In this document: positions 44,766 to 54,664 of the stretch, one piece after another
Layout: the number at the start of each line of letters is the position of its first letter
How positions within the stretch are numbered: the stretch's first letter is position 1
Made by a program: the position numbers and the translations under genes
Notes under the pieces: model-generated
Told to the model about the DNA's origin: nothing
Databases searched by the model: none
Seen by the model: only the letters and a program-made list of their open reading frames with translations
IMG/VR virus record: IMGVR_UViG_3300047311_000444
Span: 1 to 57,458 of that record
Length of the DNA: 57,458 bases
Reading direction: 5' to 3' (one strand)
Origin: a virus

Positions 44766-44944
44766 AAAGTGTCGATTGCTTTCCCGAATATGAGCACGCC
44801 CTCTGGTCTATTTTCAGTTTTGTAACCAAGGCGATGGAATTTGATTCCAATCGAGGGCGGCACGATAACTCCTGGTTGTCCAGCCTTGAATTTGTCGACG
44901 TATTTCTTCAAGGACCTAAACTCACGCATTTCGGCCTTGCTCAT
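44762..44944 (-). CDS. Hypothetical small protein
   Basis: A 60-residue protein (REFRSLKKYVDKFKAG, then IGIKFHRLGYKTE), overlapping its neighbours by four bases on each side. Basic N-terminus. Function unknown. Confidence 0.65.
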   Translation of the reverse strand: MSKAEMREFRSLKKYVDKFKAGQPGVIVPPSIGIKFHRLGYKTENRPEGVLIFGKAIDTL

Positions 44945-46092
44945 AAAGTGTCGATTGATTCCTGAGCCCGCTTCTCTTCAATGAAGGGCTGCAACTGTCC
45001 GCGCACGAAACCGTCCGCGACCTTTTTCGCCCAGCCCTGATCTCTCCGGAGCGCGTCCACCAGTTCACCCTTTGAAAACGACAACGAGGCCCACAACTCT
45101 GCCTCTGAAATGTTATACTTCTGCCGCAGGAAATCAAATGCCTCCTTGGTCTTGACGATCGGGTCCAGTCGTCGGCCTGGAACCTTGGTGAGCCCTATCG
45201 CTGTCAGGTCCTCGTCGCTCAGCGTCTTCAGTCTCGCCTTGACTGACTCCAGAATCTTGACGATCACTCCAGCACGGCGATGAACAAGCGCGAGGTCCTC
45301 GTTCGTCATCTGCTCCACCAGGAATGCAATGTCCTTTGGCGAGGCCACGTTGATCTTCTGATTGACGACGCTGGGGAGTAGAGCCCACGCAGCGGCCTCG
45401 CGGCAGATGGATTTGCACGGACAGTAATTGCAGTGATTCCCAGCAACACGCTGGGCATCGGGCTGCTTGGATAACCAGACCGCTTGAAAGATCGCCTCCT
45501 GAGACTTCTCCAGATCGCTCGGGAAGTAGTCCGTGAAGTCGAGTCGATCACTTGTCGCGATCGGTTTGACGAAGCCCACGCGCACGCTCTGCACGCCGTT
45601 GTGCTCCCTCCAGATCAAAACACCTTGGACTCGTAACTGCCAATTGCGTTGCGACGGTGTGAGATTCCAGGACCAGCCCGTTTTCCAGTCGCAGATCAAA
45701 ACGTGGAGCGCGTCGTCCGCGTCCCAACCCAAGTAGTGAACGTCCAACTTGGCTGACACTGCACGTTCCGCGCTGTCATCGTGAAGCCAGAGGCGAAGCT
45801 CTCGGGCACCCTCTTCGTAGCGAACGAGGTTCATCTGGGAACGCCACGCCGCAATGAGCTTTTCCTCGTACTCACGTCCCGCCGTGTAAATTTCGAACTC
45901 GTCCAGATCAAGCTCCACAGCGCTTTCCGTCTCCCGCGCTTTGTGGATTCGCTCGCCCACGGGGGCAAGGTCGTCTACGACTTCGACGACATTGTCCGGC
46001 AGTTCCGCCTTGAGATTTGGCTGGCCTGGGCAGGCGACTACGATCTCGAAGGACGAAGCGCTGGGGAGGTCGAGTCGCTCAAGGTCTTTCAT
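44941..46092 (-). CDS. Cas4/RecB-like exonuclease
   Basis: A 383-residue protein. Asp117 (AKLDVHY), ICDWKTG (Asp135, Lys137) and QLRVQ (152-156) form the PD-(D/E)XK core. CNYCPCKSIC supplies four cysteines for an iron-sulfur cluster, as in Cas4, AddB and related phage exonucleases (DUF2800 type). Phages pair such exonucleases with an annealing protein for recombination-dependent replication, and a candidate partner lies at 47274. The C-terminal helical region (about 245-383) is unassigned. Confidence 0.85.
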   Translation of the reverse strand: MKDLERLDLPSASSFEIVVACPGQPNLKAELPDNVVEVVDDLAPVGERIHKARETESAVELDLDEFEIYTAGREYEEKLIAAWRSQMNLVRYEEGARELRLWLHDDSAERAVSAKLDVHYLGWDADDALHVLICDWKTGWSWNLTPSQRNWQLRVQGVLIWREHNGVQSVRVGFVKPIATSDRLDFTDYFPSDLEKSQEAIFQAVWLSKQPDAQRVAGNHCNYCPCKSICREAAAWALLPSVVNQKINVASPKDIAFLVEQMTNEDLALVHRRAGVIVKILESVKARLKTLSDEDLTAIGLTKVPGRRLDPIVKTKEAFDFLRQKYNISEAELWASLSFSKGELVDALRRDQGWAKKVADGFVRGQLQPFIEEKRAQESIDTL

Positions 46093-47273: not shown

Positions 47274-48482
47274 TCACCCCCTGATCTTCGGCAGGATGTT
47301 GTGGAAGCCCTTCGCCAGCGTGAGCAGTTTCGCGTCGGATAACTCGCCCAGTTTCTTGTTCGCGGCCTTGGCGATGTTGTTGGCGCGGCAGTATCCCATG
47401 ATCTGCTCCTCAGTGACGCCGGATTTGGCCATTAAAAGTCGGAGAGACTGGAGCGCTTCCGTTTCATTCGTGTTTGCGTTCGGAACGGAAGCAGGAGGGG
47501 AGGGTGCTCCAGTCTCAGCCGGTGAGCCCACGGACGGAGCGGGTTCAGGCTCCGTTTTGGAGGGTGTGGGCTCAGGATTCGGGGTGTTGGCCGCGGCTGC
47601 CGTGGCTGAGGCAGGCGTTTCGGGGGCTGCCGGTGTCTTCGGAGCCTCCTTTTGCTCTGCGGGCTGCGGCGGGGCCTGCGGCGGCTTCTCGGCAGATTTT
47701 GCCTGTTCGGTCGTGGTTGTGGTGGACGCTGTACGCCCGCCGACCTCGGGAGTCTTGGCCGCGACCGGGAAAGCCTCTTCAACGGTCGTGTCCTGTTCAT
47801 TGATCGCGGTCTTCAGTCCGGTGAGCACCAGCAGTTGATCGTCGGTGACTTCGCTCCAGCCTTTGACGCCCAGGACCGCAAATACCCGATCGTCCGAAAC
47901 CTTGATTTGCTTCAACCACTGCCTTGCACGGTCCCGGCGCTGCTCGATCGTGGCAACCTCTTTGTTGATCACTGCACGGGCGGCTTCGATGATGGATTTG
48001 CAGAGGGCCTTCGGGACGACCTTGAAGACTGCATCCCGGTAAGCCTTCGCGAGACATGCCTTGGCGACAACTGCACGCTGCGATTCGGAGTAAGGGGTCC
48101 CATCAGTCTTTACGGTTGGCTCAATGCACTCGGACTTCCCTGCGTAGTTGCTCTCCAGGTCGTGGGCAACTCCTTCGCACTTCACATAGCGGGGGGTCTG
48201 CTCAATGATTCGAGACGCAACACGCAGGTTGCCGTAGCACGCGGCAACGATCTCAGCAAAACGAATGCTGGCGCCCTCGGCAGTCTTGCCGCCTCCGACC
48301 GGACGGGAGTAGATGCAACTCTCAGCAGTTTGCAGGTCCAGAGTCGCCATGTTGTGGGCTCGCTTTTTAAACATTTCCAGACTGCGAGGGTAAGCGTGCG
48401 CCGTCGCTACCTGGGAATCAATCTGCGCTCGTTCAATTGAGGTAATGACGGAGGGTGCGAGGAATTCGAGTTCGTTGCTCAT
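47274..48482 (-). CDS. Candidate single-strand annealing/recombination protein
   Basis: A 402-residue protein. Residues 1-240 match a conserved phage family I know from uncultured phages: IERAQIDSQVATAHAYPRSL, CIYSRPVGGGKTAEGASIRF, and later AYRDAVFKVVPKAL. About 240-350 is a Pro/Ala/Glu-rich linker, and the tail is helical. Its place near a Cas4-like exonuclease fits an annealing partner, but I cannot confirm a RecT/Erf/Rad52 fold from sequence alone. GGGKT here is not a convincing Walker A. Confidence 0.7.
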   Translation of the reverse strand: MSNELEFLAPSVITSIERAQIDSQVATAHAYPRSLEMFKKRAHNMATLDLQTAESCIYSRPVGGGKTAEGASIRFAEIVAACYGNLRVASRIIEQTPRYVKCEGVAHDLESNYAGKSECIEPTVKTDGTPYSESQRAVVAKACLAKAYRDAVFKVVPKALCKSIIEAARAVINKEVATIEQRRDRARQWLKQIKVSDDRVFAVLGVKGWSEVTDDQLLVLTGLKTAINEQDTTVEEAFPVAAKTPEVGGRTASTTTTTEQAKSAEKPPQAPPQPAEQKEAPKTPAAPETPASATAAAANTPNPEPTPSKTEPEPAPSVGSPAETGAPSPPASVPNANTNETEALQSLRLLMAKSGVTEEQIMGYCRANNIAKAANKKLGELSDAKLLTLAKGFHNILPKIRG

Positions 48483-50635: not shown

Positions 50636-51577
50636 TTAAGCAACGGCTGCGGCTGGGGTCTCGCTGTCCTCGCTGAAATCGAATCGGCGGGCGGGCCTCT
50701 CCGTGATCATCTTTTCAAGCTCGCCTTGAATTTTTACGAATTGCTCGCGAGTCGTGTCCTTGACGCTGGCGAATTCGCGAAGCTTCTGGGGTGTGACTCC
50801 CTCAAGGACGGTCTTCGCTTGCGCTACCAATTGCGCAAGCTCTACGTCCCCCATCATATTGCGCTGGCTGAACGTATCAATGAATTGTTGAATGTTCCCG
50901 ATCATCGAATCACGGAAGACCTTGGGCTTTTCCCCAGGTTCAACAGCAAGCTTGCTAACAGCGTGCGAGAGTAATTCCTTGAACCCCTCACGGAGCGCTT
51001 GCAAAATCTGCTCGCCAGCATCCGCGAATTGCTTTTCCATTTTGTCTTGCTCCGCTTGCCGCAACTCTTCCGGCAACCCTTCCGGAACACTAAAGGCAAT
51101 CCAGTTCCACGATATTTCGAACATGCCGGAAAGTTCCTTCACGCTGGGATAGTCGCTCGCGTTGAATTGCTCCCCAAGCTTGCCCTTTGCCTCTTCAATC
51201 TTCGCGGGGAACACCGCAACAAGATTGTTCGTCAAAACGGCAAGCTCAGTCTGGGCTTTCCGCATGCGGGCTTCAATGGCTGCAATGCCGTCCTTGCCTA
51301 CAAGTTGAAAGCCCGTCTTGAAAAAGGAGGGAACGGTTTGCTCATAAATCCACTTTTGCAGCCCGCCCAGGAAAGTGCAAATGTCCTCGTATTCTTTGGC
51401 TTTGATTAGTTCCTTGGTTAAGTGCAAGCGCTCTTTCGTTTGCTTGTCCTGGGTTGCGTCCTCGTTCGTTGTGATCTTCGCCATGTTACCTTTGCGGCGA
51501 TTCCCCCAGCGGCAAAACGTAGTAGTGAAGCCCACAGCGTTTTTGAAGCGGTCAAGGTCAATTGTTTTCGTGCTCAT
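50636..51577 (-). CDS. DUF3150-like protein
   Basis: A 313-residue largely helical protein with FNASDYPSVKELSGMFEISW and WIAFSVPEGLPEELRQAE, a pattern I associate with DUF3150. Such proteins recur with AAA+ ATPases in phages. It has its own consensus promoter, and an SD-less A-rich leader precedes the ATG. The family label is from memory. Function unknown. Confidence 0.7.
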   Translation of the reverse strand: MSTKTIDLDRFKNAVGFTTTFCRWGNRRKGNMAKITTNEDATQDKQTKERLHLTKELIKAKEYEDICTFLGGLQKWIYEQTVPSFFKTGFQLVGKDGIAAIEARMRKAQTELAVLTNNLVAVFPAKIEEAKGKLGEQFNASDYPSVKELSGMFEISWNWIAFSVPEGLPEELRQAEQDKMEKQFADAGEQILQALREGFKELLSHAVSKLAVEPGEKPKVFRDSMIGNIQQFIDTFSQRNMMGDVELAQLVAQAKTVLEGVTPQKLREFASVKDTTREQFVKIQGELEKMITERPARRFDFSEDSETPAAAVA

Positions 51578-52403: not shown

Positions 52404-52619
52404 TCAATGTGTGTGATGTTCCCCGCCGTGCTCATGATCATGCGAGTGCGTATGTCCGTGCGCGTGCGGCTTGCGCTTCCGCTCCACAGCCCCGCCCGCG
52501 AGTCTTGCCATGTCCCGCAAAAACGCTTCCGCGTTTGCATGGTTAGGCATTGAGACCTTGTCCGTGCTGGACTTAATTGTCCCGTCCGGAAGGATTTCGA
52601 TTTCAATCGTGTCGCTCAT
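52404..52619 (-). CDS. DUF2997-like protein with His-rich tail
   Basis: A 71-residue protein. IEIEILPDGTIK and a helix (NAEAFLRDMARLAGG) match the short DUF2997 plan, and the tail is a His run (HAHGHTHSHDHEHGGEHH) likely to bind metal. DUF2997 accompanies DUF1257 and Ycf46-type AAA+ proteins in cyanobacteria and phages. The association here supports the label. Function unknown. Confidence 0.65.
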   Translation of the reverse strand: MSDTIEIEILPDGTIKSSTDKVSMPNHANAEAFLRDMARLAGGAVERKRKPHAHGHTHSHDHEHGGEHHTH

Positions 52620-52622
52620 AAA

Positions 52623-52910
52623 TTAGTCAAAGTTGAATTTGCGTCCGGTGCCCCGCACAGGTTCAGGGCGGGTCCGGGTCGCTGTCGCTGGCATTGTTTC
52701 GCTGTACCGCTTAAAACTCTTCGCGTGCGCGTCCGCTTGCCCCAGGGCCACAAAGCGGACGTGCTTACAGGTCCGCACCGTGGCCCGCTTGAATTTCCAT
52801 CCTGGGCACTCGCAAGACGTGGACCCGTCAACGTAGAGCAAAGTCTGATAAACCTTGCCGGGAGCGCTCGAAGACTCAAAAAGCCAAACCGCTGCAATGT
52901 CCGATTTCAT
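52623..52910 (-). CDS. SWIM-like zinc finger protein
   Basis: A 95-residue protein with SCECPGWKFKRATVRTCKHV, a CxC...CxH pattern of SWIM zinc fingers, which bind DNA or proteins. Coupled to the DUF1257-like gene by ATGA. Likely a partner of the AAA+ operon. Confidence 0.7.
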   Translation of the reverse strand: MKSDIAAVWLFESSSAPGKVYQTLLYVDGSTSCECPGWKFKRATVRTCKHVRFVALGQADAHAKSFKRYSETMPATATRTRPEPVRGTGRKFNFD

Positions 52911-53176
52911 CGGCGAATAACTTGGTATTTAAAAGGAGCGGTTTGCTTGAGCGTCCAGCCGTACTTGCGGGCTTGAGACTTCACAACTTCAGCGGAATAC
53001 GCTTGCCGGACTTGCTCCCTTATCGTGTCCACGTTTCCGGACCCGGAAATAACAAGCTCGCCGTTGACGTATTGAACAAAGCCCCCCATACCAAGGGCGT
53101 CAATGGCGAGCGCTGCCAGCGGAGGGTCAAGCTTGCCAATGTCCACTTGCATTGTCTGAATCGAATCACAGGGCAT
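52907..53176 (-). CDS. DUF1257 (Ycf35)-like protein
   Basis: An 89-residue protein. The pattern IQTMQVDIGKLDPPLAALAI, a GEL strand, then AYSAEVVKSQARKYGW fits the DUF1257/Ycf35 family, which is unstudied in most lineages. It is next to the Ycf46-like ATPase, as in other genomes, so the two probably act together. The substrate is unknown. Confidence 0.65.
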   Translation of the reverse strand: MPCDSIQTMQVDIGKLDPPLAALAIDALGMGGFVQYVNGELVISGSGNVDTIREQVRQAYSAEVVKSQARKYGWTLKQTAPFKYQVIRR

Positions 53177-53179
53177 AAG

Positions 53180-54664
53180 TTAAACTCCAATCTTGCGTTG
53201 ACCCGTGGCAGCGTCCGCAGTCCTTGAATAAACACCGGCTTTGCTCGCTGAAATAAAGCGACCGTTCGCCAGCGTCCGCAAGCTTTCAACTTGGTCCGGA
53301 GCGCTCACAGCAACCGGGACGATATAGCGCGCGGCTTCTGCCAAGGACAAGCCCGTCCTTGAAGCCATATCGCAGCAAGCTTTAATCTCTGCCCCCGTCC
53401 AGTTATCACACTCCGGAAGCGGGTCATTGAAAGTCCCGTCCGGGAAAAACTTTTTGACATACATTGGCCAGATTTTGGCCCGTTCCTCTTCGCTGGGCAG
53501 GTCTACAAAAAACGTCCCCAGAGAGAAGCGGCGCCGCAACTCCGGGGGCAAGCTCGCGATTTTGTTACAAGTCGCAATGAACAGCCCTTTGCCCTGTGAG
53601 ACCGCTTTAAAAACTTCCATCGCTGTTCGAATTCTCCGCTCGCTCTCCCCGACAAGTGAACCCTTCATTGCTCCGGTATCAATCGCCACAACAGGGCAGC
53701 CCGCCACGTTCCCCGCTGCTTTGGCGATTGCGGACTTCCCCGTCCCCGGATGCCCCAGAAGGATGATTCCCGGAATGTTCAGGTCTTGCATGACTTTCAG
53801 AAAAACTTGCAATTGGTCTTGTGAAGTCCCGGACGTATCGCCAGCGCTCCCGGCAAGGCCCTTTTCTATTTCGTCAATGAAGCCAATGCAGCGCACCGGA
53901 GTTTTGCCGCTTGTTAAAACGCGAGTCAAAAAGTCTTTCAGGTTGCCCAGCCCGCCCAGGTCCGCAAACGTTTCCCCGCCCGTCCAGACTTGCAGCCCCG
54001 GAGTCTGTTCGATCATCTTGCGCTTGCGCTCCCAGAGTGCCCCGCAGTCGACTCCGGACTTTGAAACGGACATTGCAAGGACTTGTTCGGCGGCAAACGC
54101 AGAGAGACCGCGAAGCGTGTCAATAACCCTGGGCTTGTCCCCGTCGACGTTGCAGGGCACGGACGCTGCAATGCTGTCCACGATTGCGGAAAGTTCCGTT
54201 TCGTCCGGCAACTCTTCCGTGATCACTAAAACGTCTTGCTTGAGTTCAGCCGGGAGCGTCAATGCTGGGCACAGCAAAACAAGCGTGCATTGCTTTGACT
54301 TGAAAATGTCCCGCAAGTTCCAAAACCCTTGCAAAATATCTACCGTGTCAATGAACCGCTGCGCGTTGTGCCAAAAAAAGATTGAATTCTCCGGGGCACG
54401 CTCCGCAAGGACTTTCAGGCACTCGGCGGGGTTCAAACATTCAATCCCGTTCGGGTTCACTGTGGCCACAAAGCGCTTGCCCCGTTCGGACCCGAATACG
54501 GGGACAAGACCGCGCATAACATCCCACTCGCAAAGGGTGATTTCGGAAAGCTTGCCGTTGAGTTGCTTTAAGCAATTGGCAATTGTCTGGGCGGGGTCCG
54601 CCGATTCGATAGCGCAAAGCGGGACGCTCGCGCGGCGTATGGTTTTAAATTGTGCGGGGCTCAT
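53180..54664 (-). CDS. Ycf46-like AAA+ ATPase with permuted motifs
   Basis: A 494-residue AAA+ protein whose segments are out of order. Walker B with its helix (RCIGFIDEIEKG, 258-269, Asp264/Glu265) comes before Walker A (GHPGTGKS, 304-311). After Walker A come the GESE loop (339-342), sensor 1 (ATCNKI, Asn367) and LPPELRRRF (about 372-380). Canonical AAA+ proteins run Walker A, GESE, Walker B, sensor 1. The N-terminal 220 residues match the Ycf46 lead domain. It is probably an assembly or remodelling ATPase. Substrate unknown. Confidence 0.85.
   Translation of the reverse strand: MSPAQFKTIRRASVPLCAIESADPAQTIANCLKQLNGKLSEITLCEWDVMRGLVPVFGSERGKRFVATVNPNGIECLNPAECLKVLAERAPENSIFFWHNAQRFIDTVDILQGFWNLRDIFKSKQCTLVLLCPALTLPAELKQDVLVITEELPDETELSAIVDSIAASVPCNVDGDKPRVIDTLRGLSAFAAEQVLAMSVSKSGVDCGALWERKRKMIEQTPGLQVWTGGETFADLGGLGNLKDFLTRVLTSGKTPVRCIGFIDEIEKGLAGSAGDTSGTSQDQLQVFLKVMQDLNIPGIILLGHPGTGKSAIAKAAGNVAGCPVVAIDTGAMKGSLVGESERRIRTAMEVFKAVSQGKGLFIATCNKIASLPPELRRRFSLGTFFVDLPSEEERAKIWPMYVKKFFPDGTFNDPLPECDNWTGAEIKACCDMASRTGLSLAEAARYIVPVAVSAPDQVESLRTLANGRFISASKAGVYSRTADAATGQRKIGV

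Follow-up and report, generated by a model that had tools for sequence, protein, structure and literature searches.

The window, a stretch of 57,458 nucleotides (positions 1 to 57,458 of the IMG/VR virus record IMGVR_UViG_3300047311_000444), carries on its minus strand an open reading frame of 494 aa (53180..54664) that aligns end to end with its homologues and encodes a segment-swapped AAA+ ATPase of the Ycf46 type. The Walker B sequence RCIGFIDEIEKG (residues 258-269; 53858..53893, minus strand, as for all features below) comes first in its core and is followed by the Walker A sequence GHPGTGKS (residues 304-311; 53732..53755), the loop SLVGESE, sensor 1 ATCN (residues 364-367; 53564..53575), and the Arg finger R378/R379 within RRRF (53528..53533). 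An initial annotation had already placed Walker B ahead of Walker A, with the GESE loop and sensor 1 downstream in normal order; both the motif positions and the succession were exact when compared with the ORF reading and with the profile blocks described below. The Pfam AAA family (PF00004, 3.7e-15) matches the protein piecewise, and the best piece covers just 55 residues (300-354).

A gene for a small DUF1257 (Ycf35)-like protein (52907..53176) lies directly downstream of the ATPase gene, followed by genes for a SWIM-zinc-finger-like small protein (52623..52910), a DUF2997-like small protein with a His-rich tail (52404..52619), and a DUF3150-like helical partner protein of 313 aa (50636..51577). 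The SWIM match is weak and below the Pfam cut-off (E=0.0033). The family assignments of the DUF1257-, DUF2997-, and DUF3150-like proteins are also weak, as the window members have no Pfam match of their own and were assigned through their relatives. The family HMM of the DUF1257-like proteins, whose window member falls below the Pfam thresholds, also matches the DUF1257 protein of phage HJ05. In the aligned family of DUF2997-like proteins, 3 of 23 members match DUF2997 weakly, and 3 of 18 members of the partner family match PF11348 (DUF3150), the best with E=2.7e-8. Most DUF2997-like members of swapped operons end in a His-rich tail (HxHxHxH), which possibly binds metal.

The order of the core segments was analyzed with a canonical profile HMM built from 26 Ycf46 homologues with normal order, with which the swapped proteins were searched. 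This profile divides the window ATPase into four non-overlapping blocks in the order N-B-A-C, not the canonical order b1 (Walker A)-b2-b3 (Walker B)-b4. Block N is the Ycf46 N-terminal alpha/beta region (residues 5-253, profile 7-247; 53906..54652), and its score of 104 bits identifies a Ycf46 N-terminal region fused to the AAA+ core. Block B consists of b3-a3, the Walker B strand and its helix (residues 258-295, profile 316-356; 53780..53893), block A of b1-a1-b2-a2 (residues 299-355, profile 258-314; 53600..53770), and block C of b4 with sensor 1, the Arg finger, b5, and the lid (residues 361-492, profile 361-492; 53189..53584). When the order is restored in silico, the best partial match of 116 bits becomes a full-length match of 353 bits, and the median best single match of 114 swapped proteins likewise rises from 107 to 346 bits. 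The converse control, in which the swap is imposed on canonical proteins, cuts their median best match from 740 to 305 bits. The breakpoints are constant across the swapped proteins (profile 315|316-317 and 358|360), and the segment that leads from the GG motif into the first core strand has a constant length of 20 residues in swapped proteins compared with 29 in canonical ones. The swap is not a matter of chance motif matches, since the canonical HMM places all four blocks. A standard Walker B hidden elsewhere downstream of Walker A, which would have undone the annotated topology, is ruled out, as the block classification with the canonical HMM never assigns a swapped protein more than one B block.

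The segment swap [b3-a3][b1-a1-b2-a2][b4...] proposed in the initial annotation is supported by this block order, by a confidently predicted fold, and moderately by coevolution. A permutation like that of circularly permuted GTPases does not describe it, because the flanking N and C blocks are unmoved and two internal blocks are exchanged. The annotation had called the rearrangement something other than a simple circular permutation; this holds in that the whole domain is not permuted, but the description is better refined to a circular permutation within the b1-a3 sub-segment, accompanied by the loss of nine linker residues. Walker B and its b3-a3 unit are translated ahead of b1-a1-b2-a2, which holds Walker A, and the exchange would have been accompanied by the loss of about nine residues of the pre-core linker. 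The linker region before the core lies near the adenine in classic AAA proteins, and this core-entry linker must differ in the swapped proteins, given the shortened stretch after the GG motif.

AlphaFold2 with an alignment of 116 sequences yields a high-confidence model (mean pLDDT 94.5, pTM 0.90); an earlier run with 8 sequences had reached a pLDDT of only 75. All five core strands are predicted (residues 259-263, 299-304, 325-328, 360-366, and 384-387), and the Walker B strand 259-263 is modelled as a strand of the sheet, so that the motif at 258-269 does not lie outside it. The nearest viral structures found by Foldseek are Ycf46 proteins, with TM scores of 0.66-0.68 by query length from a sequential aligner that cannot superpose the moved part. 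In the canonical sheet, with strand order 5-1-4-3-2, the chain moves from strand 1 to strand 2 in one direction with a1 on one face, and from 2 to 3, 3 to 4, and 4 to 5 in the other direction with a2-a4 on the other face. The moves of the swapped chain, 3 to 1, 1 to 2, 2 to 4, and 4 to 5, would each keep the direction of the helix concerned, and therefore its usual face and the right-handed crossover, which sharpens the argument of the initial annotation that either connection is sterically plausible. The swapped chain would accordingly be able to adopt the usual 5-1-4-3-2 sheet, and the ATP site, sensor 1, and the Arg finger would be rebuilt through a different connectivity.

The sheet order itself is moderately supported by coevolution, the signal of which comes from about 105 effective sequences. 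The strongest pairs connect a3 with a2 (D283-E342, z 9.7; V291-K353, z 6.6; also V287-M349) and the end of a2 with the start of b3 (S356-C259, z 9.0). Without the sequences that share at least 50% identity with the window ATPase, D283-E342 retains z 7.4 and S356-C259 falls to 1.7. Couplings between canonical neighbour strands exceed those between non-neighbours (p=0.002). The end of a3 and the start of b4, expected to be close in three dimensions, give no coevolution signal (z 1.5). A comparison of canonical and swapped couplings over shared columns is underpowered, with an overlap of one pair in the moved segment against 0.5 expected, and is not counted as support. An AAA+-like fold with a rearranged core, for example with b3 beside b1 or at the edge of the sheet, is allowed in principle by the changed connectivity; indeed, coevolution places two non-canonical orders above the canonical one, which is third of 60, and the b3-b4 couplings form no clean parallel register. 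However, couplings of b1-b3 and b5-b3 are low compared with those of b3-b4 and b3-b2 (p=0.02), the a3-a2 packing through the three pairs above fits the usual arrangement, and Walker A and Walker B, with their invariant catalytic residues, must face one site. An altered sheet order is hence unlikely, and the couplings argue moderately for b3 in its usual position.

Walker A, Walker B, sensor 1, and the Arg finger are all present, and the positions invariant among 116 sequences are D264, E265, and K268 of Walker B, G304, G307, and K310 of Walker A, G339, N367 of sensor 1, and R379 of the Arg finger. A degenerate, non-catalytic homologue that serves for binding or scaffolding, in which the order of motifs no longer matters, might be suspected from the unusual P-loops of many members: the commonest Walker A in the swapped family is GPPGAAKS, without the usual G before K, and that of phage Tunturi_3 is GVPGVSKS, compared with mostly GxPGxGKS in canonical relatives. 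Nevertheless, the G, G, and K of Walker A, the D and E of Walker B, the N of sensor 1, and the Arg finger do not vary across these divergent sequences, which is not the pattern of relaxed constraint and makes a non-catalytic role quite improbable. In all likelihood, the swapped ATPase remains able to fold into a functional motor.

Viral contigs, contigs of bacterial genomes, and a phage collection supplied the relatives. The profile search for further proteins with the swapped motif order found 229 such loci among 358 classified, the remaining 129 being canonical and none intermediate. Full N-B-A-C order is seen in 226 of the 229, and the other three are without one end block. As these loci count some contigs more than once, they were clustered at 90% identity, which gave 126 swapped and 101 canonical clusters. 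The swapped order also occurs in gp103 of Tunturi_3, a cultured phage of Tunturiibacter, whose record annotates it just as 'ATPase', and twice in the complete genome of Nitrospira moscoviensis. Errors of assembly or sequencing and chance motif matching, for which nothing speaks beyond the metagenomic source of the window record, are refuted as practically impossible by identical breakpoints in the 126 clusters from many metagenomes, in the genome of a phage isolate, and in one complete chromosome of a bacterium, and by the single full-length family match that reordering produces.

The initial annotation mentioned similar sequences from uncultured phages; phage contigs do carry them, but this description is too narrow, as a cultured phage and bacterial genomes carry them too, at least one copy lying near a conjugative-transfer gene. 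Among whole genomes, few carry the swapped ATPase (3 of 297 Acidobacteriota, 3 of 198 Nitrospirota), the scattered pattern that mobile DNA would be expected to show. One of the N. moscoviensis copies is near genes for a TraG/TraD-type coupling protein, ribonucleotide reductase, and CHC2/Toprim primase. Bacterial copies (L127 from N. moscoviensis, L130, and L108) adjoin genes for class II ribonucleotide reductase, CHC2/Toprim primase, a TraG/TraD-type coupling protein, DUF6094 methyltransferase, and Sipho_Gp157, a setting that suggests integrated conjugative or phage-like elements. The Tunturi_3 protein, used as a single query against the viral contigs, found no relative. As for the window itself, 8 of ten large proteins (11903-48482) have no PHROGs match at E<=1e-4, and the other two match phrog_3657 (47277-48482, minus strand) and the exonuclease phrog_69 (44944-46092, minus strand); with so few matches, this phage is far from described ones.

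In an IQ-TREE phylogeny of the unmoved blocks (363 columns), the 30 sampled swapped proteins fall on one side of a branch with support of 100/100, and the swapped and planctomycete-type canonical proteins together likewise (100/100), so one state change suffices to explain the distribution of the swap. The split between swapped and canonical proteins recurs in FastTree analyses of all 227 clusters, with support of 1.0 for all columns, 1.0 for the unmoved columns, and 0.925 for the moved columns alone. The window ATPase lies inside the Ycf46 family tree and adjoins the planctomycete-type canonical members (100/100); its annotation as Ycf46-like is borne out by this position, by the block N match, and by the nearest viral folds, all of which are Ycf46. 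Walker A comes first in other AAA+ proteins, so that the swapped order appears to be the derived state. A single exchange, in a lineage adjoining the planctomycete-type Ycf46 proteins, would have given rise to this order, which would then have spread in phages and other mobile DNA. The swapped lineage is a topological variant, of single origin and probably functional, of a known ATPase family.

The gene neighbourhood is shared between the two topologies. With flank lengths that vary between clusters and make all counts lower bounds, a DUF3150-like homologue is found near at least 113 of 126 swapped and at least 30 of 101 canonical clusters, a DUF1257-like homologue near at least 82 of 126 and at least 21 of 101, and a DUF2997-like homologue near at least 39 of 126 swapped clusters; the SWIM-like homologue is an occasional neighbour (at least 17 of 126 swapped clusters). 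With the same partner genes beside both topologies, the ATPase has most likely kept its job through the swap. From this neighbourhood, there is about an even chance that the swapped ATPase is a protein-remodelling chaperone of a dedicated partner; that the DUF3150-like protein is its adaptor or substrate is a more tentative suggestion. The mechanism would comprise ATPase activity, ring assembly, and chaperone action, either on the DUF3150-like partner and the DUF1257- and DUF2997-like proteins or jointly with them. The block order, the breakpoints, the single clade, the catalytic invariance, the confident predicted fold, and this shared neighbourhood, all of them computed, are best explained by an active ATPase of the Ycf46 kind whose core was changed by one segment exchange with the usual sheet kept, and which, having arisen once, has spread in mobile DNA; this explanation is very probably correct.

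Canonical Ycf46 proteins of planctomycete type and of phages (Rhizobium phage RHph_I4 EVC24_084 and Pseudomonas phage SM1 A0A0U3CC34) have the N-terminal region, the four blocks, and the catalytic residues in common with the swapped ones and often the same DUF1257/DUF2997/DUF3150-like neighbours, whereas in the swapped proteins b3-a3 stands before b1 and not after a2, and the pre-core linker is nine residues shorter. Among solved structures, p97/Cdc48, VCP-like, Rix7, and NVL proteins match the window ATPase in the Walker A/b1-a2 and sensor-1/lid blocks, and Foldseek aligns the whole chain to the double-AAA p97; they have Walker A first, however, and the profile matches break at the swap, with the best stretch at about 298-350. 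No solved structure among the matches listed matches the profile across the swap. The identity 'anti-phage ATPase IteA' of NCBIfam was rejected, as the match is partial and reaches 33 bits against a cut-off of 510. The circularly permuted P-loop GTPases YjeQ/RsgA and YlqF are natural proteins that combine an altered motif order with a preserved fold. Their permutation spans the entire domain (G4-G5-G1-G2-G3) and leaves Walker A ahead of Walker B; in contrast, the swapped ATPase exchanges only an internal segment pair, and B precedes A.

In agreement with the initial annotation, which noted no earlier account of this topology, no description of a permuted AAA+ protein or of Walker B before Walker A was found in the openly available papers searched. 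Passages in PMC538276, PMC7617512, PMC7824862, PMC10853773, and PMC10659427 deal with other matters, and the paper on the Tunturi viruses (PMC11924767) says nothing about the ATPase. The swapped proteins are thus likely to represent a natural AAA+ lineage with a non-circular core permutation, B before A, that arose once and resides in numerous phages and mobile elements, the first in AAA+ proteins according to this literature. The order Walker A-Walker B-sensor 1 has been treated as a fixed AAA+ signature on which family profiles depend, and annotation based on order breaks the swapped proteins into partial matches. The existence of a widespread lineage in which B precedes A and the catalytic residues are intact indicates that the AAA+ core tolerates internal rewiring and provides a natural test of connectivity versus three-dimensional arrangement in folding and in the coupling of ATP hydrolysis to work. 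The cultured pair Tunturi_3/Tunturiibacter and the isolate N. moscoviensis open the swapped ATPase to such testing. In Tunturi_3, gp96 (L001:11681-12640), recorded as 'HNH endonuclease', can be aligned over its full length with the family of DUF3150-like partners, and its recorded annotation may be wrong.
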